A stretch of 64,000 bases of DNA from a virus. Position numbers and translations under genes: made by a program. The notes under the pieces are model-generated. The model did not search any database. It saw only the letters and a list, made by a program, of their open reading frames with translations, and was not told the origin of the DNA. The stretch covers positions 1 through 64,000 of the IMG/VR virus record IMGVR_UViG_3300021371_000010, one strand, 5' to 3'. Positions 15,943 through 34,631 of this stretch are shown here, one piece after another (within the stretch, counting starts at the first letter, position 1; each line of letters starts with the position of its first letter).

Positions 15943-17574
15943 ATGTCAGATAAAATATATGTAAAGCATCAACTTGCAGGCGGTAGTTTTCAGCAACCGT
16001 ATAACTATCAGGTTCCAACACCTCTTAGAACTCCTGCAATTAAAAACCAAACTTATCGTCACCCGACAATAACGCAGGTCCCTCAGACCTATATTGCAAC
16101 TGGGAGAACAACTGCTAGGTATCCTTTCACATATCCATTTACAACGCAAGGAACTACTCAACAACCTAACACGTATAATATACAAACTTCAGCACAGGGT
16201 AACACGAGAGGTAATACTCGAATTTCTGCTCAAGAAACAACACCTGCTATTGGTAACTCTAGAGTTATTGGTAACACTAGGGCACCAATCGATGCACAGG
16301 GTACAACGATTACACGATACCCATATATTCAACCATTGATCGGGAATACTCAAGCAAACGCACAGCAACCAAATACGTATTCTTATCAATCACCGTTTAC
16401 ATATGATATTCAATCACCAACACAATATAGTATACAAACTTCTGTAAATGCACAGTCGCCCTCAATTGTTGATTATTCATATCAAACATCGTTACAGCAA
16501 CCTACAATTACACGTTATCCATTTACATATGAATACAATGTGCAAAATGCTACTCAAGGAAGTACTCGATACCCATTTACTTATCCGTTTACTGGGAGTT
16601 CTACAACACCAGTAATTAAAGTAGACAATTATAATATCGATGATCAAATTCATATACCAGATGAAACTGGTACTGGTACTTCAAGTAATAACCCTATGGT
16701 TTCAACTTTGACAGCAACTACTTTGTTGAGTACTCCTCAAACAAGAGGTGATGCAATTTACTTTAGACTTAGAAGAGTACTACCAACTACATCGGGTTAT
16801 ACATCTTCTAATGATTATCTAGTTCTCGAAGCAGTAAAAGATAGTGCCCAACATACTAAAACTGGTATAAGTGTATCAGTTGCTAACAGAGAAACATCTG
16901 GACCTCCAACTGGTCATACAGGAACAACTGTTATACAGAATTATAGTTCAACAGCAACGAATAATAATTATGTAGAAATAGCAAGATTCGGTTGTCCTGT
17001 AAGTGAAGGAGTGGTTTCTGAATTTGAAATTACATTAACACCAGACGCCACTACTACATTTAATACAACAGTGGGATCATTGTCAAATTCTGCTATTTCT
17101 GGTTGTTCTATATCTTTTGATACTACAACAAACTCAAATGGTTTCACTACTTATGCTTTTTCTAATTCAAATACTTCACATTATAATGACTGCTTAAATG
17201 CAAAAATATATGGAAGTTCTTTGATTTCTCCAAACTCTCAGGGATTTGGTATATTAACAACATACACATCAACGGGTACTGCTAGTTCGAGTTCATATAC
17301 AGTAAGGAATTATAGAGGTATTGATATATTAGTGAAACTTAAAAAGACGGGTAGGGGAACCCATACTACTCAGTATCCAATGAAACTAAATTTCATATAC
17401 TTAGCAAGTCATATTACTGGCGGCGGAGGCGGCGGAGGCGGTGGATTCCCATCACCATTCCCAAGTACTCCAAGTTTCCCAACGTTTGATCCGTTTAGTG
17501 ATCCATTCCACCCGTTCAACTTACCTCTTGTTCAGCAGTCAGTAGAACCTCTGGAGCAACGACTAGCAGGGTAA
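15943..17574 (+). CDS. Pro/Tyr/Asn/Gln-rich repeat fibre protein with poly-Gly C-terminus
   Basis: This 543-residue protein starts one base after the preceding stop. Residues about 20-225 are built from degenerate units of the type TRYPFTYPFT, TTQQPNTYNIQTSAQGNTRG. These have regularly spaced Pro, aromatic Tyr/Phe, Asn/Gln and a Gly-Asn-Thr-Arg turn. Residues about 225-490 form a non-repetitive Ser/Thr-rich domain with beta character. Near residue 493 comes a run of nine glycines, followed by a Pro/Phe-rich end (FPSPFPSTPSFPTFDPF). There is no Cys in the repeat region. The same repeat family makes up the genes at 17577, 26157 and 27934. I recognise no named family. A fibrous adhesin or shaft is inferred from the context of fibre genes on both sides. 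Confidence 0.7.
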   Translation: MSDKIYVKHQLAGGSFQQPYNYQVPTPLRTPAIKNQTYRHPTITQVPQTYIATGRTTARYPFTYPFTTQGTTQQPNTYNIQTSAQGNTRGNTRISAQETTPAIGNSRVIGNTRAPIDAQGTTITRYPYIQPLIGNTQANAQQPNTYSYQSPFTYDIQSPTQYSIQTSVNAQSPSIVDYSYQTSLQQPTITRYPFTYEYNVQNATQGSTRYPFTYPFTGSSTTPVIKVDNYNIDDQIHIPDETGTGTSSNNPMVSTLTATTLLSTPQTRGDAIYFRLRRVLPTTSGYTSSNDYLVLEAVKDSAQHTKTGISVSVANRETSGPPTGHTGTTVIQNYSSTATNNNYVEIARFGCPVSEGVVSEFEITLTPDATTTFNTTVGSLSNSAISGCSISFDTTTNSNGFTTYAFSNSNTSHYNDCLNAKIYGSSLISPNSQGFGILTTYTSTGTASSSSYTVRNYRGIDILVKLKKTGRGTHTTQYPMKLNFIYLASHITGGGGGGGGGFPSPFPSTPSFPTFDPFSDPFHPFNLPLVQQSVEPLEQRLAG

Positions 17575-17576
17575 TC

Positions 17577-18386
17577 ATGGCGCAATTTCAATCACAATGG
17601 ACACAACCTTACTCAGTACAGAGTCCCTTTATATATCAGGGACAAGGGAGCACTAGAGGAACAACACGATATACTTTTCAGTCACCTTCAACTGCTCAGG
17701 GTAACACAAGGGGAACTACAGACACTCCAAGTCCATATCGTCAACCAAATATTGGGTCAACAGATGCACAAAATACTGTAATTGTACAGCAACCAAGTCG
17801 AGGAACTACACAAACACCTTCAATTGGAAACACAAGAGCAACAGTACAGGGACAAACAAGGTCACCATACAGATCGCCATTTACGTATGCGTATCAAGTA
17901 GATGCTAGAGGAAATACTGAGACTAGATATCCGTTTACTTTTCAATCACCGTTTACGTATCAGAATCCTATAACATACGATTTTCAGTATCAGTCGCCAT
18001 ATAGATCACCTGCTAGATATCCCTTTACGTACCCGTTTAGAGTACCATCGATTGGGAATACTAGATCGCCGTTTACGTATGAAATTCAAAATACAGGTAA
18101 CACACGTGGTACTACACAAGTGCCTTATATATTTCAAGGCAACAGTAGAGTACCATATAATTTACAGACTGTTTCACCTACTACATACACTGTTAGATCA
18201 CCTAGCATTGTACAGTCACCAGCAATTGGCACAAGACCAATTGGTCCTGTAGCAGAAGTTAAAGCAGTATATTTTAAAGATTCTGATGGTGTAGTAAAGA
18301 AATTAGAAAAAGGATATGTAAAAGATTCTCAAGGGACTGTAAGAAAAATACATACTGGCATCCCATTTGCCCAACTAAGCAATTAA
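17577..18386 (+). CDS. Short Pro/Tyr/Asn-rich repeat fibre protein
   Basis: This 269-residue protein begins two bases after the preceding stop. Residues about 15-220 are repeat units of the same type as its neighbours (RSPFTYAYQVDARGNTETRY, QSPFTYQNPITYDFQ). The last 50 residues are different and charged (AEVKAVYFKDSDGVVKKLEK, then DSQGTVRKIHTG), with two copies of a K/D-rich 'VKxxDSxGxVxK' beta hairpin. This small C-terminal domain may cap or attach the repeat shaft. No enzyme motif is seen. It is the shortest member of the repeat family in the window and could have arisen by deletion within a longer repeat protein. Confidence 0.68.
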   Translation: MAQFQSQWTQPYSVQSPFIYQGQGSTRGTTRYTFQSPSTAQGNTRGTTDTPSPYRQPNIGSTDAQNTVIVQQPSRGTTQTPSIGNTRATVQGQTRSPYRSPFTYAYQVDARGNTETRYPFTFQSPFTYQNPITYDFQYQSPYRSPARYPFTYPFRVPSIGNTRSPFTYEIQNTGNTRGTTQVPYIFQGNSRVPYNLQTVSPTTYTVRSPSIVQSPAIGTRPIGPVAEVKAVYFKDSDGVVKKLEKGYVKDSQGTVRKIHTGIPFAQLSN

Positions 18387-18996: not shown

Positions 18997-20019
18997 GTGA
19001 AACCTACATTATGGACACGTGATGAGTGGTCCCCTTTGCAAGAATGCATTTTAGGGACTGCAAAAGAGTTCAACCTCACGAAAGACATCTCACATTATGT
19101 CGTTGATTGGCATGATAGTTCTTGGTCTGATTATATTGAAGCAGATTTCGAATACATCACTAAAGACATTATTGCTGAAGCAGAAGCAGACTTAAACTAC
19201 TTTCAAACAGTGCTTAGGACTCACGGTGTTGTCGTCCATCGCCCGCAAACATCTTTGACATGTAATCAGATCAGTAATGGTATGTGGGAAACAGGCCAGA
19301 TGCAATTTTACAATGTCAGAGACATTGCTTTTGTTATCGACAATACCATTGTAGAGTCAGCAATGTCAGTTCGTACAAGGTATTTTGAACAGTATAGTAT
19401 ACAACATATCTTCAAACAAAAATTCTTAGAAGGTGCTAAATGGTTGTCTATGCCTAAACCAAAACTATCAGATGATCACTATTCATTAAATGTATTTCCA
19501 GATATACCAACGCATGAACCATTACTTGATGGTGCAAACATATTGAGAATGGGAGATGATTTATTAGTAAGCACAAATTTAACTGCTAATAAAATGGGTG
19601 TTGAATGGTTAAGAAGACATTTTCCTAATCATAGAATACATGAGATTGATCTCACACATAAAGTTACATCTCATATTGATACAACATTTACAGTATTAAA
19701 AGAAGGTGTAGTATTGATTAATGAAGAGAGAATTAAAGAAGATGAAGTTCCAGATCTTTTTAAAGATTGGACAAAAGTATTCATCACTAAAGACATTATA
19801 GCAGATGTGCAACCAAAAGTCAAGAGAGGAATCGCATCTAAATGGGTTGGTATGAATATGTTTTCTATAGATCCCAATAATGTTTGTGTAGATGCATCAC
19901 AAGAACGTCTTATGGAAGTGATATCACAATATGTAAATCCTATACCTATACCTATGAAGCATTCTAGAATTCTGGGTGGAGGATTACATTGTTGTACTTT
20001 AGACTTATTAAGAAATTAA
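18997..20019 (+). CDS. Amidinotransferase-like enzyme (AGAT/arginine deiminase superfamily)
   Basis: The 340-residue protein carries the triad layout of glycine/inosamine amidinotransferases. E174 and D178 lie in EPLLDGANILRMGDD, H226 in HIDTTFTVL, and C332 in GGGLHCCTLDLLR at the extreme C-terminus. An upstream R108-D109 lies in NVRDIAFVI. In this family the Cys attacks the guanidino carbon of arginine and passes the amidino group to an amine, or hydrolyses it. The length is close to bacterial members. The start is GTG at 18997 without a good ribosome binding site. It sits between fibre genes and has a late promoter just downstream, an unusual place for a metabolic enzyme. The true acceptor substrate cannot be read from sequence; a deiminase or a modifying enzyme are alternatives. 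Confidence 0.8.
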   Translation: MKPTLWTRDEWSPLQECILGTAKEFNLTKDISHYVVDWHDSSWSDYIEADFEYITKDIIAEAEADLNYFQTVLRTHGVVVHRPQTSLTCNQISNGMWETGQMQFYNVRDIAFVIDNTIVESAMSVRTRYFEQYSIQHIFKQKFLEGAKWLSMPKPKLSDDHYSLNVFPDIPTHEPLLDGANILRMGDDLLVSTNLTANKMGVEWLRRHFPNHRIHEIDLTHKVTSHIDTTFTVLKEGVVLINEERIKEDEVPDLFKDWTKVFITKDIIADVQPKVKRGIASKWVGMNMFSIDPNNVCVDASQERLMEVISQYVNPIPIPMKHSRILGGGLHCCTLDLLRN

Positions 20020-26156: not shown

Positions 26157-27914
26157 ATGGCGTCAGGCAATCAGAAAATAAAAACCCCTTCGGGTTGGAA
26201 TAGCACAAGAGGTGCTTGGGTAAAGACTGGTGGTACAACTTGGAAGTCAGTAGATCAAATCTATGTCAAGACTCCTACAGGTTGGAACGATGCATCTGGT
26301 CAAGAGAACGCACAGCAACCATATCCTTATATTGCCAATGCTCAAAATCCTGTTATAAGACAACAAGTACAACCATATCCGTACATTGCAAATGCTCAAA
26401 ATCCGGTTATAAGACAGCAAACGCAACCGTATCCTTACATTGCGAATGCACAGAATCCGTTCATACGTCAACAGACACAACCTTATCCTTATATTGCGAA
26501 TGCACAGAATCCATTTATAAGAAATAGACAAACGCCGTTTACGTATCAGTATCAGTCCCCAAGTACATATGCTACTCAAGGAAATACACAGGTACCTTAT
26601 GATCATCAATCACCATTTACTTACGAAACGCAAGGGTCGACAAGAGGTAATACTCAAACACCATTTACTTACCCATACATTCAACCACTGATCGGGAATA
26701 CTCAAGAGTCAAACTCGTATATACATCAGGTTGCAACTACTGGTAATACAAGATCACCATTTACATATGCATATCAAGTAGATGCTAGAGGCAATACACA
26801 AGAACCGAATATCTATAATTATCAAGTAACAACTACTGGTAATACAAGATCGCCGTTTACATACGCATACCAAGTTGATGCTAGAGGTAGTACACAAGAA
26901 CCGAATACTTACATCTATCAAGTATCAACTACTGGTCAGACAAGGTCACCATTTACTTACCCTTTCATTGCTAACGCAACAGGGAATACTCAGGAACCTA
27001 ATACATATTCATATGGTGTTCCTAATATTGGTAATACAAGATCACCATTTACATACGCATTCCAAGTAGATGCACAAGGTGTAACTGCTGGAGTTACTAG
27101 ATCACCATTTACATATGCATATCAAGTAGATGCTAGAGGAAGTACGCAACAACCTAATACATATAATATACAAACAGCAACGATTGGTCAGACAAGGTCA
27201 CCATTCACGTATGCATATCAAGTAGATGCTAGAGGAAGTACTCAGCAACCTAATACTTACATTTATCAAGTTACTACAACTGGTAATACAAGATCACCAT
27301 TCACGTATGCATATCAAGTAGATGCTAGAGGAAGTACTCAACAACCAAACACTTACCCATTTACTGTAAATGCTAATGGGTCAACTAGATCGCCATTTAC
27401 TTACCCTTATATCGCCAATGCTACTGGTAATACTAGATCACCATTTACGTACCCTTACATAGCAAACGCAACAGGGAATACTAGATCACCATTTAGATAC
27501 CCTTATATACAACCTTTAATTGGGAACACCACAGGAAATACTACGGGTAACACAAGAGTTAATGCACAGGAACCTAATACAACACCTACAACATATCCGT
27601 ATACAGTAAATGCTCAAGAACCAAACAGAACACCTACAACATATCCGTATACAGTAAATGCACAGCAACCAGTGCCATATCCGTTTACATACCCATACAC
27701 AGTAAACGCAACAGGGAATTCACGAAATCCATTTACATACCCGTATACAGTCAATGCAACAGGGAATTCAATCGGTAGTACAAGATCACCATACAGATTC
27801 CCATTTAGAACACCGACTAGAGTACCATGGAGAGTCACAGCACAGCAACCCAGTCAGGGAAGATTCCCATTCTTCTTTAGTCCAGGAGGAGGTTTACCAC
27901 AATTCTTAAAATAA
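26157..27914 (+). CDS. Long Pro/Tyr/Asn/Gln-rich 16-residue repeat protein
   Basis: This 585-residue protein has an N-terminal unit of about 50 residues with two copies of 'KTPSGWN...W' (KIKTPSGWNSTRGAWVKTGG, IYVKTPTGWNDASG), a Trp-containing module that may anchor the protein. Next come four copies of an 18-residue unit (QPYPYIANAQNPVIRQQ), then about 25 units of a 16-residue repeat such as VTTTGNTRSPFTYAYQ and VDARGSTQEPNTYIYQ. Each repeat has a Gly-x-Thr turn, a single Pro and a Tyr-x-Tyr-like pair. The C-terminus becomes Pro/Arg/Phe-rich (RSPYRFPFRTPTRVPWRV) and ends FFSPGGGLPQFLK. No Cys and only the initiator Met are present. I recognise no family; a fibrous shaft is inferred. Confidence 0.7.
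   Translation: MASGNQKIKTPSGWNSTRGAWVKTGGTTWKSVDQIYVKTPTGWNDASGQENAQQPYPYIANAQNPVIRQQVQPYPYIANAQNPVIRQQTQPYPYIANAQNPFIRQQTQPYPYIANAQNPFIRNRQTPFTYQYQSPSTYATQGNTQVPYDHQSPFTYETQGSTRGNTQTPFTYPYIQPLIGNTQESNSYIHQVATTGNTRSPFTYAYQVDARGNTQEPNIYNYQVTTTGNTRSPFTYAYQVDARGSTQEPNTYIYQVSTTGQTRSPFTYPFIANATGNTQEPNTYSYGVPNIGNTRSPFTYAFQVDAQGVTAGVTRSPFTYAYQVDARGSTQQPNTYNIQTATIGQTRSPFTYAYQVDARGSTQQPNTYIYQVTTTGNTRSPFTYAYQVDARGSTQQPNTYPFTVNANGSTRSPFTYPYIANATGNTRSPFTYPYIANATGNTRSPFRYPYIQPLIGNTTGNTTGNTRVNAQEPNTTPTTYPYTVNAQEPNRTPTTYPYTVNAQQPVPYPFTYPYTVNATGNSRNPFTYPYTVNATGNSIGSTRSPYRFPFRTPTRVPWRVTAQQPSQGRFPFFFSPGGGLPQFLK
26311..26530 (+). repeat. Four tandem copies of a 54-bp (18-codon) repeat
   Basis: The unit encodes QPYPYIANAQNPVIRQQ with V/T and V/F variants. 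Copies differ at many third positions (TATCCTTAT/TATCCGTAC), so the protein rather than the DNA sequence is conserved. Confidence 0.85.
26700..27500 (+). repeat. Tandem 48-bp (16-codon) repeats
   Basis: Units alternate between 'xxxTGNTRSPFTYAYQ' and 'VDARGSTQEPNTYIYQ', giving a 32-residue super-period. DNA identity between copies is high but with scattered synonymous changes. Boundaries are approximate. Confidence 0.8.
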
Positions 27915-27933
27915 GAATTAAGGAAAAGTAATT

Positions 27934-29556
27934 ATGGCACAAGGACCTTATCAATATAGAGCAACAGTTAGAAGTCCAACAGACTACCCTGTGTTTATCA
28001 ATGCACAAGGGAGTGCCCAACAACCGAATGGATATCCGTTCACTTACCCGTATATTGCTAACGCAACAGGGAACAGTAGACAACCATTCACTTACCCATA
28101 TATTGCTAACGCAACAGGGAGTACAATTGGTGCTACTAGATCCCCTTACATAGCAAACGCAACTGGTAATACAAGGGTACCATTTAGATCCCCTTACATA
28201 GCAAACGCAACTGGTAACACGATTGTACCATTTAGGTCGCCATATAGACAACCTACTACTTATCCATTTACTTATCCGTTTACATATGCGTATCAAGTAG
28301 ATGCTAGAGGTAGTACACAGCAACCTAATACTTACCCATTTACTGTAAATGCTACAGGGAGCACACAGCAACCTAACACTTACCCATTTACTGTAAATGC
28401 TACAGGGAATACTCAAGAACCAAATATTTACCCTTATATCGCCAATGCTACTGGTAATACTAGATCACCATTTAGATATCCGTATATTCAACCGTTAATC
28501 GGGAATACACAAGAACCAAATACGTATATCTTCCAAACAGCAACAATTGGTAATACTAGATCGCCGTTTAGATACCCATATATTCAACCTCTAATCGGGA
28601 ATACACAAGAACCTAATACTTACATATATCAGACACCAAGTATTGGTAACACTAGATCACCATTTAGATACCCTTACATTCAACCTCTAATCGGGAATAC
28701 ACAAGAGGCAAATCCGTATGCATTTAGATATCCGTATATTCAACCACTAATTGGGAATACGCAAGAACCTAACACATACTCATTCCAAGTTACAACTATT
28801 GGTAATACTAGATCGCCTTTCACTTACCCATATACAGTGAATGCTACAGGGAATACTCAGGAACCAAATACGTATATCTATCAAACAGCAACGATTGGTA
28901 ACACTAGATCGCCGTTTAGATACCCATATATACAACCTCTGATTGGGAATACACAAGAACCTAACACATATATTTTCCAGTCACCAGCATCTGGTAGCAC
29001 AAGATCGCCGTTTAGATATCCGTTTATTCAACCGTTGATCGGGTCTACTCAAGAACCTAATACTTACATATATCAAGTTTCTACACCAGGTATAACTAGA
29101 TCGCCATTTACATATGCGTATCAAGTAGATGCAACAGGTAACACTAGACAACCTAACAGATATCCATTTACATATCCGTACATTGCAACTGGTCAGCAAC
29201 CTAATATTAGACAGCAGACACAACCGTATCCTTATATTGCTAACGCAGTGAATCCGTTCATTAGAGATGCTAGACAACCAGCAACATATAATCACAGATC
29301 ACCTAGCACTTACGCAACTCAAGGGAATACACAAGTGCCATATAATCATAGATCCCCAAGTACATATGCTACTCAAGGAAATACTCAAGTGCCTTATAAC
29401 CATAGATCCCCAAGTACATATGCTACTCAAGGAACTACAAGGGTACCATACAGTCATAGATCCCCAAGTACATATGCAAGACAGGGTAGAAATCCTGTGA
29501 TCAGATGGGATGGAGACTTAGATAACCAATGGCCAGGTTCTCCAATTACGTCATAA
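27934..29556 (+). CDS. Second long Pro/Tyr/Asn-rich repeat protein
   Basis: The 540-residue protein begins MAQGPYQYRATVRSPTDYPV and moves at once into repeats. The first part has YPFTYPYIANATGNSRQ-type units. Residues about 180-390 consist of a 32-residue super-repeat (YPYIQPLIGNTQEPNTY + IFQTATIGNTRSPFR). The C-terminal part has an 18-residue unit SPSTYATQGNTQVPYNHR in four copies, then a short unique end RWDGDLDNQWPGSPITS. It is 19 nt downstream of its paralogue and has an AAGGAAA ribosome binding site. One copy is truncated (NTQEANPYAFRYPYIQPL), a visible deletion product. Immediately downstream is a glycosyltransferase and oxygenase cluster, which may modify these repeats (inference). Confidence 0.7.
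   Translation: MAQGPYQYRATVRSPTDYPVFINAQGSAQQPNGYPFTYPYIANATGNSRQPFTYPYIANATGSTIGATRSPYIANATGNTRVPFRSPYIANATGNTIVPFRSPYRQPTTYPFTYPFTYAYQVDARGSTQQPNTYPFTVNATGSTQQPNTYPFTVNATGNTQEPNIYPYIANATGNTRSPFRYPYIQPLIGNTQEPNTYIFQTATIGNTRSPFRYPYIQPLIGNTQEPNTYIYQTPSIGNTRSPFRYPYIQPLIGNTQEANPYAFRYPYIQPLIGNTQEPNTYSFQVTTIGNTRSPFTYPYTVNATGNTQEPNTYIYQTATIGNTRSPFRYPYIQPLIGNTQEPNTYIFQSPASGSTRSPFRYPFIQPLIGSTQEPNTYIYQVSTPGITRSPFTYAYQVDATGNTRQPNRYPFTYPYIATGQQPNIRQQTQPYPYIANAVNPFIRDARQPATYNHRSPSTYATQGNTQVPYNHRSPSTYATQGNTQVPYNHRSPSTYATQGTTRVPYSHRSPSTYARQGRNPVIRWDGDLDNQWPGSPITS
28474..29080 (+). repeat. Tandem 96-bp (32-codon) repeats
   Basis: Six to seven copies of YPYIQPLIGNTQEPNTY + xxQTxTIGNTRSPFR, one with an internal deletion near 28706. 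These are dimers of the 16-residue unit. Confidence 0.85.
29296..29486 (+). repeat. Four tandem copies of a 54-bp (18-codon) repeat
   Basis: The unit encodes SPSTYATQGNTQVPYNHR. Copies 2-4 share long identical DNA (AGATCCCCAAGTACATATGC), suggesting recent duplication. A single copy also occurs near 26556 in the upstream paralogue. Confidence 0.85.
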
Positions 29557-29559
29557 ATA
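29552..29559 (+). promoter_or_regulatory. Late promoter-like CATAAATA before the glycosyltransferase gene
   Basis: One mismatch to TATAAATA, overlapping the stop codon of the repeat protein. It would give a leader of about 26 nt for the gene at 29591, which lacks a clear ribosome binding site. Confidence 0.5.
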
Positions 29560-29590
29560 CTTTTAGTATTTAAAAACAATTAGTTATATT

Positions 29591-31171
29591 ATGAAACCAG
29601 ATTACGAAACCACCCTTGCTCAATTAAAAGACCTAGACAAAGGCGATAAGACTTATGTACATCTAGGCAGTTTTGATGCTGATAAAGAGTATAAAGAAAC
29701 AGATGCATATAAACTATTGAAGTATGTCTTTGAGAATAAATTAGATTCACTTAAACGTGTGAAATGGAAAGACATATCAAAACTGCAAAGTACTAGACTA
29801 GGCAAATTTGGCGATCAAATGAAATTGAATAGTTATGGTATGATGCAACATCAATCATATATCTACAATCATTATCTTCCATTTGGTTACACACAAATAA
29901 TGGATCCTGAAAGAAATATTAAGGGTCAGATGATTATGGATTTTATGAATCATGATGGAGAATATGAAAGTCTTGCTAAGTATTCTAACTTCGAAGGATT
30001 GACATGTGATCAAAATACAGACTATGTGAGAGATCAATTAGGAAGTTTCTATTATCATGCGGCCAAAGGTCACTGGTTAATTCACAATTTACAGAAAGAG
30101 GGATTGTGGTTTCCAATTCAAGGACAGATCAATAAGAATGGTGACAGTGCTAGTTTACAAATACACCCAGGTTCTATACGTACTCCAGTATTTGAGTTAT
30201 TGAATGATGATAATTTAGAAGTTCTTTTATACAATGACAAAGATATGTTTCCAGATGTTGCACCATTAGAACTAGATGAATACTTAGAACAGATAATAGA
30301 AGAAGTAGATATTCATGGATCACATTCTAATATATCTTTTGCTTACAGTATGGGTTATATTGAAACTAATTTAAGTCTTCAATCTAAAAGAGATTTCAGA
30401 AAAGAAGTATACGACTTCAATAAAAAAGTTAGTGAACAAGTTAAAGGTAAAAGAGTAACTATCTACATTGGTTATGATAGTCGTCATTCTAATTTAGCAG
30501 AGCAAAGTAAAGCATTGATAGAAAGAATGATTGAAAAGAATACTTCATGTTTGGGTGGCGTAAACACGTCTGACCCAATCAAAGCAGTATCAGACTGGAA
30601 ACCAGAAGTTAAACTTTTAGATATATCAAAAATACCAGAGTATACTAGAGAGTATGCTAATCAATCAACAGAATTTACATATAGTAGATTTCTTATCCCT
30701 CATTTAGAAAATTATGAAGGGTATAGTATATTCGTAGACGATGACTACATCTTTAGAAAGTCTATACTACCATTCTTTTTATTTTTAAATCCCGACGATG
30801 CAGTAGCATGTGTTCAATATGATTTTGATAATCATGGCGAGACAAAGTTTGATGGAGAAAAGAACGTTTCTTATCCTAAAAAACTATGGTCAAGTTTCAT
30901 GGTATTCAATAACGGACACGAAGACTGTAAAAAACTAACACCAGAAACTGTAAACTCAGAATCTGGTAAGTATCTACATCAATTTGAGTGGACAGATAAG
31001 ATCAGTAAAATACCAGACTTTCATTTTGTGACAGAAGGGTATGATCACTTAGATGATAAACCACAAGCATTTGCGATACATTATACACGTGGTGGTCCAT
31101 GGATAAAAGACATGGATACCAGCAACATAAATATGTTAAACATATATGATATGTTAACAGACACCGATTAG
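29591..31171 (+). CDS. Two-domain protein with C-terminal glycosyltransferase (GT8-like) domain
   Basis: The 526-residue product has an N-terminal half (about 1-270) of unknown family containing QMKLNSYGMMQHQSYIYNHY, LPFGYTQIMDPERN and LQIHPGSIRTPVFELL. The C-terminal half begins KGKRVTIYIGYDSRHSNLAE and continues with TEFTYSRFLIPHLENYEGYS, IFVDDDYIFRKSILPFF, and KLWSSFMVFNNGH. The order 'start strand, (F)TYSRFL.P.L..Y.G..IF.D.D, ... W.S.M.FN..H' is typical of GT8-type nucleotide-sugar transferases, with the DDD near residue 383 as the metal-binding DxD. The gene follows the repeat proteins directly, so glycosylation of virion fibres is a reasonable role, but host lipopolysaccharide modification is an alternative. 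Confidence 0.75.
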   Translation: MKPDYETTLAQLKDLDKGDKTYVHLGSFDADKEYKETDAYKLLKYVFENKLDSLKRVKWKDISKLQSTRLGKFGDQMKLNSYGMMQHQSYIYNHYLPFGYTQIMDPERNIKGQMIMDFMNHDGEYESLAKYSNFEGLTCDQNTDYVRDQLGSFYYHAAKGHWLIHNLQKEGLWFPIQGQINKNGDSASLQIHPGSIRTPVFELLNDDNLEVLLYNDKDMFPDVAPLELDEYLEQIIEEVDIHGSHSNISFAYSMGYIETNLSLQSKRDFRKEVYDFNKKVSEQVKGKRVTIYIGYDSRHSNLAEQSKALIERMIEKNTSCLGGVNTSDPIKAVSDWKPEVKLLDISKIPEYTREYANQSTEFTYSRFLIPHLENYEGYSIFVDDDYIFRKSILPFFLFLNPDDAVACVQYDFDNHGETKFDGEKNVSYPKKLWSSFMVFNNGHEDCKKLTPETVNSESGKYLHQFEWTDKISKIPDFHFVTEGYDHLDDKPQAFAIHYTRGGPWIKDMDTSNINMLNIYDMLTDTD

Positions 31172-31175
31172 TCTA

Positions 31176-31204
31176 TTGACTAATCAATACATTTGGAGTA
31201 TAAT
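31176..31204 (+). promoter_or_regulatory. Sigma70-like promoter TTGACT-17-TATAAT
   Basis: TTGACT (31176-31181), a 17-nt spacer, and TATAAT (31199-31204). The ATG of the next gene is at 31214, about where transcription should begin, so the mRNA may have almost no leader. It may let the modification genes be expressed by the host polymerase independently of the late system. Confidence 0.65.
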
Positions 31205-31213
31205 TAAAAGATT

Positions 31214-31765
31214 ATGAATATGTTTATATACGATGAAAATGGAAATCTAACTATTCGAAAAGAGAGTGGTTTAGAATACTCATTTGACAATACAGATAAA
31301 CCAGTCCTTGGTTTTGACTACGATGTACTAATCTATGATGAAATAGAAGTTAAGATTACTAATTGGGAAGAGGGTAAACACTTTGACGATCAAGTCAAAC
31401 AGAACCTAACTCCTGAAGAATGTGATTCTATTGAGTTGTATATTAAGAACTCAGAACCACCTATGGGGTTCTCATTGAATCAACAACTATCAGAGAGATT
31501 GAATATGGCATGTAAGGATTACATTGTCCAAGCAATTCAAGAATATGGTTTTACTGATTTAACAGAGATCACTTATGCTGGTCGTGAAGGTTCAAATCAC
31601 CCTCTAAGATCAGATGCTAGATATTGCTTAGATTATTGTGATACTGTTTGGGGTGTTTATATGAATATTGTTGAAGAAATTAGAAACACTAGAGAAGATA
31701 CACTAAAAAGTTTCGAAGAGTATCTTGCACCAATTCCTGGTGCTTCACGGAACTTAATGAGATAA
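31214..31765 (+). CDS. Conserved-looking hypothetical protein, first gene of the oxygenase cluster
   Basis: The 183-residue protein contains no motif I recognise. The N-terminal 55 residues (MNMFIYDENGNLTIRKESGL, FDYDVLIYDEIEVKI) look like paired beta strands. The centre, LTPEECDSIELYIKNSEPP followed by LNMACKDYIVQAIQEYGFTD, is probably helical. A Cys/Tyr/His-containing stretch HPLRSDARYCLDYCDTVWGV follows. The stop overlaps the ATG of the oxygenase gene at 31765 (ATAATG), indicating translational coupling and hence a shared process. The role is unknown; a partner of the oxygenase is possible. Confidence 0.6.
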   Translation: MNMFIYDENGNLTIRKESGLEYSFDNTDKPVLGFDYDVLIYDEIEVKITNWEEGKHFDDQVKQNLTPEECDSIELYIKNSEPPMGFSLNQQLSERLNMACKDYIVQAIQEYGFTDLTEITYAGREGSNHPLRSDARYCLDYCDTVWGVYMNIVEEIRNTREDTLKSFEEYLAPIPGASRNLMR

Positions 31766-32466
31766 TGCAGTGTCGTCCGCTTGACGAACCTATCGAACAG
31801 TTAAGTGTTGAATATATAGATCAACCATTTCAAATATCAGAACTACCTTTAGATAGAGTATACGTCTTAGATAACTATTTGCCATTGACCGTATGGCGAA
31901 AGATGGATCAGTTATGTACAGATAATATGATCTGGTCTAAAACAAATCAAGTTGGTTCACAAAGTCCTACAGGATTACCTTCTCATAGTTTTTGGGGTTC
32001 AAGTATTTTTCAAAAGAATAGACGACCTGATACTATCAATTCAGGCGTAATTCATTTCATGGATATCATCGACAAGAAGATTCAAAATGATTTTGGATTT
32101 GAGTGGTTAAGATTTCAATATATGGGTTTAAATTCACAGACAGCAGGTTGTCATGGTACAACTCATTCAGATTGTGATAAAGATGATGTTTGGAATTTAT
32201 CGTTTCTTTTTTACTATAATAGTTTTTGGAATCCAGCATGGGGTGGTAGTTTAAGATTTTATGACTCACCTCAACAAGGATTAGATGGTCGTGATGAACA
32301 CATAGAGAATCATCAACTCGCAGAAGTTGAATTCAAACCAAATAGATTGCTTATGTTTGATGGTAGAATACCACACGGAGCAGATGCACCCAAAGAACGT
32401 GCCAGATATATGGACAGAAGGTCGTTAGTTTTGAGGGGCGATGAAGTAAAACTCACTCATGTATAA
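31765..32466 (+). CDS. 2OG-Fe(II) dioxygenase, prolyl-4-hydroxylase type
   Basis: The 233-residue protein has the complete iron and cosubstrate set: H134-S-D136 in GTTHSDCDKDD, H204 in IPHGADAP and R219 in DRRSLVLRG. These are spaced as in prolyl-4-hydroxylase-like enzymes. A WGGSLRFYDSP strand between them is the usual 'GG.L.FY' element. Such enzymes couple oxidation of 2-oxoglutarate to hydroxylation of a protein side chain or other substrate. The gene overlaps its neighbours on both sides by a few bases and is part of a tight cluster downstream of the Pro-rich fibre proteins. Proline or asparagine hydroxylation of these fibres is a hypothesis. Confidence 0.82.
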   Translation: MQCRPLDEPIEQLSVEYIDQPFQISELPLDRVYVLDNYLPLTVWRKMDQLCTDNMIWSKTNQVGSQSPTGLPSHSFWGSSIFQKNRRPDTINSGVIHFMDIIDKKIQNDFGFEWLRFQYMGLNSQTAGCHGTTHSDCDKDDVWNLSFLFYYNSFWNPAWGGSLRFYDSPQQGLDGRDEHIENHQLAEVEFKPNRLLMFDGRIPHGADAPKERARYMDRRSLVLRGDEVKLTHV

Positions 32467-33022
32467 AGTAGTAGACAGTCAGTTCATAATCGATAATCAT
32501 GCAGAGTTAGAGTACACTGCAACACAAATATGTAAACAGTATATGCCCTTTCTAAGTCAAGATGAATATGCAGGTACATTTAAAAAGGGTGGTGGAGACT
32601 ATACAGAAAATCACGATACATATAATATATGGTCACTACTTAGAGATTTTAAAATTTGGCAACCAGTATATGAAGAAGTCACTGATACTATAAAAAGTTG
32701 CTATGACGGTCCGAGTGATTATCTTTATCTAAAATCATGGATCAATTATAGTGAGGGTAAAGAGTTATTAGGTTGGCATGGTCATAATTGTAAGTTACAT
32801 GGATATGTTTCAATAACTCCTCATAAAACTACTACTGAGTTTGAAAGATTTGAAGTAGAAAATAAAATCGGTAGAATTTATGTAGGACCAGGTATATATT
32901 TACATAGAGTAAATATTGTTAAACCATTTACAGGAAAAAGAATAACAATTGGTTTTGATGTATATGACAACGTAGATCATTCTAGAAGACCGCTAAATAC
33001 AATACCAATAAGAGTACACTAA
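32459..33022 (+). CDS. 2OG-Fe(II) oxygenase-fold protein with HxH instead of HxD
   Basis: The 187-residue product has a shape like the cupin-type oxygenases: YLYLKSWINYSEGKELLGWH, then GHNCKLHGYVSI, a middle strand with IYVGPGIYLHRVNIVKPF and KRITIGFDVYD. The likely ligands are H107, H109 (or H114), H149 and R161. The usual Asp of HxD is replaced, which also occurs in some phage members of this fold and in halogenase-like variants where Asp is lost. It overlaps the preceding gene by 8 nt and abuts the next. Whether it is catalytically active with iron cannot be told from sequence. Confidence 0.6.
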   Translation: MYKVVDSQFIIDNHAELEYTATQICKQYMPFLSQDEYAGTFKKGGGDYTENHDTYNIWSLLRDFKIWQPVYEEVTDTIKSCYDGPSDYLYLKSWINYSEGKELLGWHGHNCKLHGYVSITPHKTTTEFERFEVENKIGRIYVGPGIYLHRVNIVKPFTGKRITIGFDVYDNVDHSRRPLNTIPIRVH

Positions 33023-33924
33023 TGCCACATATAGATTTCATAACAAACAGTAAAGATACACTTAGAGATTTCAAACCAGTTCTTGCAAAATCTATTATGC
33101 CCGAATGGTGGAAGAAAGGAAAAATTGATCAGTATATACGTGGTGAATTTGTTCAAACTATCAGAGCATGTCCTGCCATGGACGATTGGACTAAATCAGG
33201 ATATTACATCGTAGCAAATAGAGACTTTAAAATTCTTGCTGGTGAAGAAAGAATACATGAAGAAGCAAATACTATTGGTGCTTTAGATACATCAGGACAT
33301 TTGTATGAATCACAGTCACACCCTAAAGATCAGATGTTTAATACATTTGAATATCTAGGCGATGATGGACCAGTTAAAGATGCATTTAAAATGAGAAATC
33401 CATGGAACGTCAAAACACCTCCTGGTTATTCGACTTTATACTTAGACCCGTTCTTATTTCAAGGAAGAGCATTTGCGGCATGGCAAGGCATTATAGATAC
33501 TGATAAGATGCATGTCAATCAAGACAACGCACAGATAATATTTTATCCAAGATTCAATACAAGTTTTACAATTAAAAAGGGTACACCTTTAGTTCAATGT
33601 ATTCCATTTAAAAGAGAAGAGTGGCATGCATCTTTTCAATATCAAGACCCTAAAACATTTCATGAAAATAGATCTGGTCCTAAAGAACATGGTGGAATAT
33701 CTAACGAAGATGTATTGTCAGTAGATTATTGGAATAGATGTGGTAGATACGACCAAGATGTTATGGACGGAAAAACTCAGAGAGATGAAAGAAAAAAAGG
33801 CACTATGAAAATGGGTCCTTATAGAACTGAAGGTTATTGGACAGAAAAGTCAAAGTTCTTTAAGACTATGGAAGAAGTTACACCACCACCTGAGTGTCCT
33901 ATGCACAAGAGTGAGGAAGAATAA
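33022..33924 (+). CDS. Conserved phage protein, DUF6065-like, of unknown function
   Basis: The 300-residue protein starts MPHIDFITNSKDTLRDFKPV and has a central section PWNVKTPPGYSTLYLDPFLF, then AAWQGIIDTDKMHVNQDNAQ, IIFYPRFNTSFTIKKGTPLV and QCIPFKREEW. The pattern 'tppGyS.l.....(P/N)..(F)...G.iDTD.....N........' followed by 'KGTPLvQ.iPf.R..W' resembles a conserved uncharacterised family found beside oxygenases in phages and bacteria. The jelly-roll-like order of strands suggests a cupin fold. A CPAMDDW segment (residues 53-59) and the C-terminal CPMHKS contain Cys/His but no full metal site. Start and stop overlap both neighbours (TAATG), so it belongs to the same operon. Confidence 0.62.
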   Translation: MPHIDFITNSKDTLRDFKPVLAKSIMPEWWKKGKIDQYIRGEFVQTIRACPAMDDWTKSGYYIVANRDFKILAGEERIHEEANTIGALDTSGHLYESQSHPKDQMFNTFEYLGDDGPVKDAFKMRNPWNVKTPPGYSTLYLDPFLFQGRAFAAWQGIIDTDKMHVNQDNAQIIFYPRFNTSFTIKKGTPLVQCIPFKREEWHASFQYQDPKTFHENRSGPKEHGGISNEDVLSVDYWNRCGRYDQDVMDGKTQRDERKKGTMKMGPYRTEGYWTEKSKFFKTMEEVTPPPECPMHKSEEE

Positions 33925-34631
33925 TGAGTACAGTACACTATCTATTTCCTAGTTTTGTTTTTGAAAGAGATTTCTTAGGCAGACATCAACATGTCGAACC
34001 ATCTATGAACGAAGACTACTTCGAGCAGTTAAAAAATGAAATCGATTCTATGAGAAAGAAAGATCCAGTTGGTAGAAGAGTTTCAAATGCATATACAGGT
34101 TGGCAATCACATGATGGTTGCGATAATAATCCTGCTTTTATCAAATGTATAAGATCAATCAAACGTATGATGAGAGACGAAGTAATGTTGCACTTAGGTG
34201 TAAAGAGTGGGTTTCAAGTAGAGTTTCATAATTGTTGGGCAAACATAAACGATAATATGGCATGGAATAGACCACATTTACACAATGGTTGCTTTATGAG
34301 TGGTGTCTTATATATTAAAGCAGATGGTGATGAAGGAAACTTCAGTGCAATCGATACAGATGCAAGAGTTGTTGGTGCCCATCCTGTCATGCCAAAAATG
34401 AAAGAGTCAGTACAGTTTCAACCTAGAACTGGTACGATGTATTTATTTCCTAGTGGGTTGATGCATATGGTCGAACCTAATCTAACTGATAAAGATAGAT
34501 ACAGTATATCTTTTAACATGAATGTTGTTCAGAATAATTTAAAGATTGGCAGTGTCGACGAGAACGATTTTACTGAAGATAATCATAGTTTATCATGGGA
34601 ATTAGACGAGCAGGGCAAACTGATTATCTAA
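33924..34631 (+). CDS. 2OG-Fe(II) oxygenase-like protein (TIGR02466 type)
   Basis: In this 235-residue protein, CWANINDNMAWNRPHLHNGC, FMSGVLYIKAD, then GTMYLFPSGLMHMVEPN and DRYSISFNMNV match the family of phage proteins annotated as putative 2OG-Fe(II) oxygenase (TIGR02466). Ligands by pattern are H118-L-H120 (HxH rather than HxD), H181 and R192. The family is common in cyanophages and other marine T4-like phages; its substrate is not known to me. The gene overlaps the preceding stop (ATAATG). Its own stop codon is embedded in a late promoter-like box that drives the next gene. Confidence 0.75.
   Translation: MSTVHYLFPSFVFERDFLGRHQHVEPSMNEDYFEQLKNEIDSMRKKDPVGRRVSNAYTGWQSHDGCDNNPAFIKCIRSIKRMMRDEVMLHLGVKSGFQVEFHNCWANINDNMAWNRPHLHNGCFMSGVLYIKADGDEGNFSAIDTDARVVGAHPVMPKMKESVQFQPRTGTMYLFPSGLMHMVEPNLTDKDRYSISFNMNVVQNNLKIGSVDENDFTEDNHSLSWELDEQGKLII

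Follow-up and report, generated by a model that had tools for sequence, protein, structure and literature searches.

The 64,000-nucleotide stretch analysed here (positions 1 to 64,000 of IMG/VR record IMGVR_UViG_3300021371_000010, hereafter the window) is part of a 71.9-kb fragment of an uncultured T4-like phage, whose neck and tail-sheath-stabiliser genes are related to those of cyanophages. At 26157-34631 it carries a cassette that we regard, with moderate confidence, as a modification system for virion fibres. Two long repeat proteins, REP1 and REP2, are followed by a glycosyltransferase (GT) and by a series of genes that includes oxygenases of the Fe(II)/2-oxoglutarate (2OG) type, in an order and at coordinates that had been given correctly in an earlier note made from the letters of the window. 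Comparative evidence supports the view that these enzymes serve the repeat proteins. The cassette is composed as follows, with protein lengths in amino acids (aa) and ratios of nonsynonymous to synonymous divergence (dN/dS) taken against the nearest relative (L003/L082):

26157..27914, plus strand: REP1 (repeat protein 1), 585 aa, with an N-terminal module KTPSGWN..WVKTGG.TWKSVDQIYVKTPTGWN and 16-aa repeats after it; dN/dS 0.10
27934..29556, plus strand: REP2 (repeat protein 2), 540 aa, with 16-aa repeats and a conserved C-terminus RWDG..QWPGSPITS; dN/dS 0.08
29591..31171, plus strand: two-domain GT, with an invariant HPGS.R in the N-terminal domain and a C-terminal GT-A fold (GT8/GT24-like) with invariant D383-x-D385 and H497...GGPW
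31214..31765, plus strand: orphan protein ORP, 183 aa, seen here solely with the cassette
31765..32466, plus strand: prolyl-4-hydroxylase (P4H)-type Fe(II)/2OG oxygenase (PF13640), with invariant H134-x-D136...H204 and R218
32459..33022, plus strand: extra gene, lineage-specific, phrog_2696, with weak 2OG-FeII_Oxy_5 likeness and low synonymous divergence (dS)
33022..33924, plus strand: DUF6065-related protein, putatively dUTPase-like (beta-clip) rather than a cupin
33924..34631, plus strand: TIGR02466 / 2OG-FeII_Oxy_5 oxygenase, with invariant H118-x-H120...H181 and R192

The association between repeats and enzymes extends well beyond the window. Their co-occurrence across marine phages, which the earlier note had proposed as a check, turned out to be near-invariant within one clade, to persist for the GT and a repeat protein where these are far apart, and to find a parallel in other Pro-rich repeat proteins that adjoin PF13640 oxygenases and DUF6065 genes. 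The cassette-bearing loci come from metagenomes, most of them as fragments, and no isolate of this cassette family was found. In the main clade (clade i), the full order REP-GT-ORP-P4H-DUF6065-TIGR02466 is present in 46 of 61 clusters, defined at 90% identity from 157 GT loci, and two further clusters (L040 and L044) are interrupted by contig ends; a score for an upstream repeat protein (REPup) in the L131 cluster was discarded as a false label. Since this sampling starts from the GT, a second one was made by the neck gene gp13 alone. Among the loci so obtained with about 6 kb or more of upstream sequence, REP and GT accompany 15 of 16 cassette-positive loci, and neither is present in any of 16 cassette-negative ones (Fisher p 6e-8, phylogeny not corrected for).

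Two divergent T4-like lineages keep both the GT and a repeat protein at distances of 19 to about 100 kb. In clade ii (G001), a REP of 459 aa with a 16-aa period, ORP, the P4H-type oxygenase, DUF6065 and TIGR02466 occupy the same slot with no GT there; the two-domain GT lies about 19 kb off, two genes after a major-capsid-type gene and beside another PF13640 oxygenase. A clade-ii match labelled REP180 was rejected, as it is the gene after gp23 and not a repeat protein. In clade iii (G011, 160 kb), the repeat protein is a different one, P/Y-rich and with a 17-aa repeat. A PF13640 oxygenase gene comes 44 bp after it, succeeded by genes for DUF6065, a further DUF6065-like protein, a JmjC/cupin_8 protein and a PF13759 oxygenase; about 100 kb separate the GT from the repeat protein, and a search for ORP in G011 found none. 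The two-domain GT thus accompanies a repeat protein in three lineages.

This pairing bears on a quite different reading, in which the GT and the oxygenases target host surface glycans or proteins for receptor masking or superinfection exclusion and the late-tail position of the cassette reflects only late expression. The nearest relatives of the GT domain in isolates, in Mosig and S-SCSM2R, are indeed encoded among sugar and nucleotide genes, at a distance from the tail genes. Yet these relatives match only the C-terminal GT domain, whereas it is the two-domain protein that pairs with repeat proteins, and we consider a host target improbable.

Further modules were found among relatives of the clade-iii oxygenase, gathered by that enzyme alone (80 loci). 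Of the 11 closest relatives with upstream sequence, 10 are preceded at 17-58 bp by a gene for a Pro-rich repeat protein and have one or two DUF6065 genes nearby. These modules represent about six lineages with differing repeats, such as QPAYSVTTNYPSR, GPANYNAPTNGPQNYN, VPGNATGTYNIIPGN and PTPGNYVAGTNP, and DUF6065 recurs in many phages beside Pro-rich repeat proteins and oxygenases. The profile of the clade-i PF13640 family aligns poorly with the PF13640 proteins of clades ii and iii, an indication of repeated recruitment. In another phage, collagen-like (Gly-Pro-Thr)n proteins are encoded near a PF13640-family oxygenase, upstream of gp13 (L265, 12146-14659).

The repeats themselves obey a definite grammar. 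REP1 and REP2 match themselves best at a lag of 32 residues and second best at 16, with lag-32 identities of 0.38 and 0.41, respectively, versus shuffled maxima of 0.114 and 0.116 (standard deviation 0.006), and they contain 29 and 32 copies of P-x-x-Y, or 23 and 25 of P-x-x-Y-x-[Y/F/I/H]. The 16-aa periodicity that had been noticed earlier is hence real, but its description as one fixed Pro and one Y-x-Y per 16 residues is approximate, with 64 and 70 prolines and only 22 and 17 strict Y-x-Y. Across 141 non-redundant repeat proteins about 91% of Pro-Pro distances are even, in varied spacings (2, 4, 6, 8, 10, 12 and so on), and Pro-Tyr distances are odd; the even share reaches 95% in REP1 and 98% in REP2 (shuffle z 19 and 26). 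Single-residue shuffling ignores tandem repeats, so that the z values overstate independence, and parity is better argued from the variety of spacings. Pro, Ile, Gln and Thr prefer one side of this parity and Tyr, Phe, His, Ala and Glu the other, a pattern that we read as a beta-like in/out alternation with insertions and deletions of two residues. No three-residue (mod-3) excess was detected in the Pro spacing of REP1 and REP2, nor the Gly at every third residue or the period of three expected of a collagen-like protein. Taken together, the spacing statistics argue against a collagen or polyproline-II fold for the repeats of the window clade, and the comparison with collagens and extensins made in the earlier note does not survive as a structural analogy.

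That note had counted two long repeat proteins. Both are real, but the window holds four such proteins, for two upstream genes encode products with the same P/Y/T richness and grammar and weak tandem periodicity:

15943..17574, plus strand: repeat protein, 543 aa, with a P/Y/T-rich N-terminal part of about 220 aa and a non-repetitive C-terminal part; even Pro-Pro spacing 81%, z 8.5; weak tandem periodicity
17577..18386, plus strand: repeat protein, 269 aa, Pro-Pro spacing 94% even, with a conserved C-terminal module ...VAEVKAVYFKDSDGVVKK...KIH

In relatives, the counterpart of the second protein ends in VAKVKGVF... Adjoining these upstream genes, at 18997-20019, lies a gene for an amidinotransferase/dimethylargininase-like protein (a weak match), possibly an arginine-modifying enzyme, a relative of which is held by a glycan/2OG cluster of cyanophage S-SCSM2R.

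The siting of the repeat proteins between fibre-type structural genes and gp13 suggests that they probably serve the tail as adhesive or spacer elements, and would place them in the virion. No match for REP, ORP or the N-terminal module of REP1 stood up among 50,697 phage records, and a local control, which recovered 87 of 98 loci, shows that the REP search could have detected such proteins. A REP2 query did miss the repeat protein of G001 that reading of the DNA revealed, an example of how similarity search on repeats can give a false negative. Two weak Vibrio matches in the isolate search were set aside, as their genomic context looked unrelated. The modules of REP1 and REP2 can be reshuffled: their order is swapped in L092 (8077-9872), and a single protein in L093 (4811-5947) combines the REP1 N-terminus with the REP2 C-terminus, suggesting that both probably work in one structure. 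The contigs of these two loci are filed in Bacteroidota metagenome-assembled genomes, which may hint at a host or reflect misbinning. In L005, L009, L012, L021 and L083 the C-terminal 200 aa or so of REP1 form a Hint/intein-like domain (in L083 with a PF01079 score above cut-off), which suggests self-cleavage or splicing of the repeat protein in those loci; the window REP1 has no such domain.

The enzymes of the cassette can be assigned with varying precision. What had been described as a GT8-like glycosyltransferase is so in its C-terminal domain, but a second, N-terminal domain of about 280 aa, still uncharacterised, had been overlooked. Against PF01501 (GT8) the window protein scores below the Pfam cut-off (15.9 versus 24.3 bits), and 13 of 16 relatives match the model, at best with E 7e-6. 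Its predicted structure, with a predicted local distance difference test score (pLDDT) of 79, matches the GT8/GT24 enzymes LgtC, glycogenin and UGGT (Z 11-12.8) and has among its fold neighbours the Skp1 galactosyltransferase 6mw5 (Z 11.6) and the mimivirus collagen glucosyltransferase R699 (Z 10.8). The GT-A fold is accompanied by the DxD motif expected of it, and both this motif (D383-x-D385) and H497 are invariant among relatives. For the N-terminal domain a ParB-like fold was suspected because of HPGS.R, but it has no match in Pfam and the fold searches covered mostly the C-terminal domain, so that it is left unassigned.

The P4H-type oxygenase exceeds the curated cut-off of PF13640 (33.4 versus 27 bits), which bears out its earlier description, and H134, D136, H204 and R218 are invariant in 16 relatives, in which residue 214 is R or K. 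PHROG 274, named "DNA endonuclease V", matches this protein at 3e-19, and the "denV" label on such cyanophage genes may be a misannotation. The last gene of the cassette was likewise rightly named, scoring 93.7 bits against an NCBIfam cut-off of 62.5 for TIGR02466. The gene between the oxygenases at 32459-33022, described as an HxH oxygenase-fold protein, retains only a weak likeness to PF13759 (E 0.14) and, among the sampled cassette loci, occurs only in the window and its nearest relatives. Its dS between window and nearest relative is 0.086, versus 0.35-1.0 in neighbouring genes, a value that suggests recent transfer; the gene was probably transferred or recombined recently. In the same comparison the remaining cassette genes have dN/dS of 0.08-0.17 and are thus under purifying selection. 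For ORP, no relatives outside the cassette were found in what was searched, including the 50,697 phage records.

The product of 33022-33924 had been called a cupin-like orphan, a label that we reject: it has no Pfam cupin match and a single invariant His, and it is related to DUF6065. Its 50 best structural matches are all dUTPases (Z 7.5-8.3, from a low-confidence model of pLDDT 54), its profile aligns to E. coli Dut with a probability of 59%, weak Pfam matches point the same way, and its motifs GIIDTD and GTPL.Q align with those of Dut (G-[IL]-I-D-x-D and G-x-x-[AC]-Q). From these predictions it looks like a dUTPase-type beta-clip protein.

The combination of a 2OG oxygenase with a GT is a known DNA-modification pairing, and it might be supposed that the cassette modifies the bases of phage DNA, in the manner of other T4-like phages. 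Besides that precedent, the uncharacterised N-terminal domain of the GT and the dUTPase-like DUF6065 protein would fit such a role. Set against these are the PF13640/P4H type of the oxygenase, the position of the cassette within a tail-structural block and the repeated pairing with Pro-rich repeat proteins, and we give DNA hypermodification very little credence.

In the system that we favour, the enzymes would act on the P/Y-rich repeats before or during virion assembly. The prolyl-hydroxylase-type oxygenase would hydroxylate repeat residues, with proline the likeliest and asparagine a possible target, the TIGR02466 oxygenase would perform a second oxidation, and the two-domain GT would attach a sugar to the repeats, perhaps using a hydroxylated residue; ORP and the DUF6065 protein may have roles in the same process. 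Gene content, catalytic residues, fold or family assignments and the grammar of the repeats are shown directly, and comparison across phages supports the functional link; the modified residue, the sequence of reactions and the presence of the repeats on virions are inferred. The idea of a phage pathway acting on adhesins, put forward earlier, is strengthened insofar as repeats and enzymes belong together well beyond their adjacency in one window, but neither the collagen/extensin analogy nor the strict order of hydroxylation followed by glycosylation attached to it finds support. Some indication as to the residue comes from a homologous pair of repeat proteins (L200/L197) in which Phe replaces Tyr at 41 of 61 sites, whereas 60 of 70 Pro, 94 of 100 Asn and 76 of 81 Gly residues are retained. 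The Tyr hydroxyl is thus not needed there, making Pro or Asn the better candidate and tyrosine a less likely one, in that one lineage.

Several observations weigh against this proposal. In the gp13 sample the cassette is found in almost every locus at 66% gp13 identity or more and in none at 56% or less; the cassette-positive loci fall into a single gp13 similarity group, which one gain could explain, and co-occurrence in the main clade may be the product of one gain and vertical synteny. The nearest solved prolyl hydroxylases are matched weakly, heading the profile search of the P4H family at E 0.002 (6t8m), and homology does not fix the substrate. A Pro-rich repeat gene lies within 3 kb in only 16 of the 80 clade-iii-oxygenase relatives, implying that the link with repeats holds for a subfamily and not for PF13640 at large. 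The 17-aa repeat of clade iii departs from two-residue parity, which precludes a common repeat fold. Finally, enzymes in relatives lacking repeats, an occurrence that the earlier note had named as counting against its proposal if frequent, are seen in part. One locus (L281) has ORP-P4H-DUF6065-TIGR02466 after baseplate-like genes with no REP or GT upstream, on a 14.9-kb contig, so that these may lie elsewhere. In the stretch of cyanophage syn9 that was read, homologues of DUF6065, the extra gene and TIGR02466 follow Gly-rich adhesin-like proteins and there is no Pro-rich repeat; these families are hence not Pro-specific.

The gp13 pattern is what would be predicted if the cassette were an accessory island gained once beside the fibres and kept by synteny, unrelated to the repeats. 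Such hitchhiking does not readily account for the retention of both GT and REP when separated, for similar modules built from other repeats and other PF13640 proteins, or for the purifying selection on the cassette genes, and it seems to us decidedly improbable. The L281 and syn9 loci lend weight to the view that virion adhesins are modified, but that the enzymes leave the repeat prolines untouched and act on different fibre proteins or on other residues (Asn, Arg, His or Tyr), the repeats being mere neighbours; the TIGR02466 and DUF6065 families, moreover, are without known substrate. On the other hand, unrelated Pro-rich repeats recur directly beside PF13640 oxygenases, and the lineage that swaps Tyr for Phe keeps Pro and Asn. 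Of the rival explanations this is the most serious, although we still deem it unlikely.

Comparison with known systems helps to place the proposed fibre modification. The Skp1 pathway of Dictyostelium and Toxoplasma is cytoplasmic, and in it a prolyl 4-hydroxylase supplies the acceptor for glycosyltransferases that include Gat1. The fold match of the phage GT to the Skp1 galactosyltransferase is a point of likeness, whereas Skp1 is modified at one proline of one regulatory protein and the phage repeat proteins would offer dozens each. Mussel foot proteins and extensins have short repeats that contain Pro and Tyr; the phage repeats resemble them in composition only, with no homology claimed, and differ in that one related phage lineage can substitute Phe for Tyr. 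Syn9 (gp41-gp54) shares the homologues of DUF6065, the extra gene and TIGR02466, together after fibre genes, but it differs in its halogenase-annotated genes and, over the stretch read, in lacking a GT, ORP and any Pro-rich repeat protein. Over gp36-gp54 of this phage (L087/L192), two halogenase-annotated genes, several 2OG-type genes and a DUF6065-type gene come after the Gly-rich adhesin-like proteins, and fibre-adjacent protein modification may extend beyond Pro-rich repeats.

The nearest known system is that of mimivirus, which encodes collagens together with L230 (a lysyl hydroxylase plus glucosyltransferase), the prolyl hydroxylase L593 and the collagen glucosyltransferase R699, with activity shown (PMC9546862). 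Both viruses combine repetitive structural-type proteins with 2OG hydroxylases and a GT-A-fold GT, and R699 is among the fold matches of the phage enzyme. The mimivirus repeats, however, are collagen Gly-X-Y, whereas those of the phage follow a two-residue grammar with no Gly-X-Y; the phage GT has another N-terminal domain, and the phage cassette adds ORP and DUF6065. If the proposed modification takes place, the phage cassette would work like the mimivirus system without being a member of it, its repeats not being collagen.

The 2OG oxygenases of marine phages are frequent, their substrates are mostly unknown, and they are usually filed as auxiliary metabolic genes. The recurrent adjacency of Pro-rich repeats and PF13640 oxygenases offers some of these enzymes a specific substrate that can be tested. 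More tentatively, marine tailed phages might have evolved Pro-rich repeat fibres with their own prolyl hydroxylases repeatedly and independently, joined in T4-like phages by a dedicated two-domain GT, and virions with hydroxylated, glycosylated adhesive fibres could then represent a bacterial-virus counterpart of collagen- or extensin-type modification, based on a beta-like repeat of a new kind. Searches of the open-access PubMed Central literature found no account of hydroxyproline in the virion proteins of phages. If the proposal is true, phages would make hydroxyproline and glycosylated structural repeats inside bacteria, with a bearing both on host attachment and on the engineering of prokaryotic hydroxylation.

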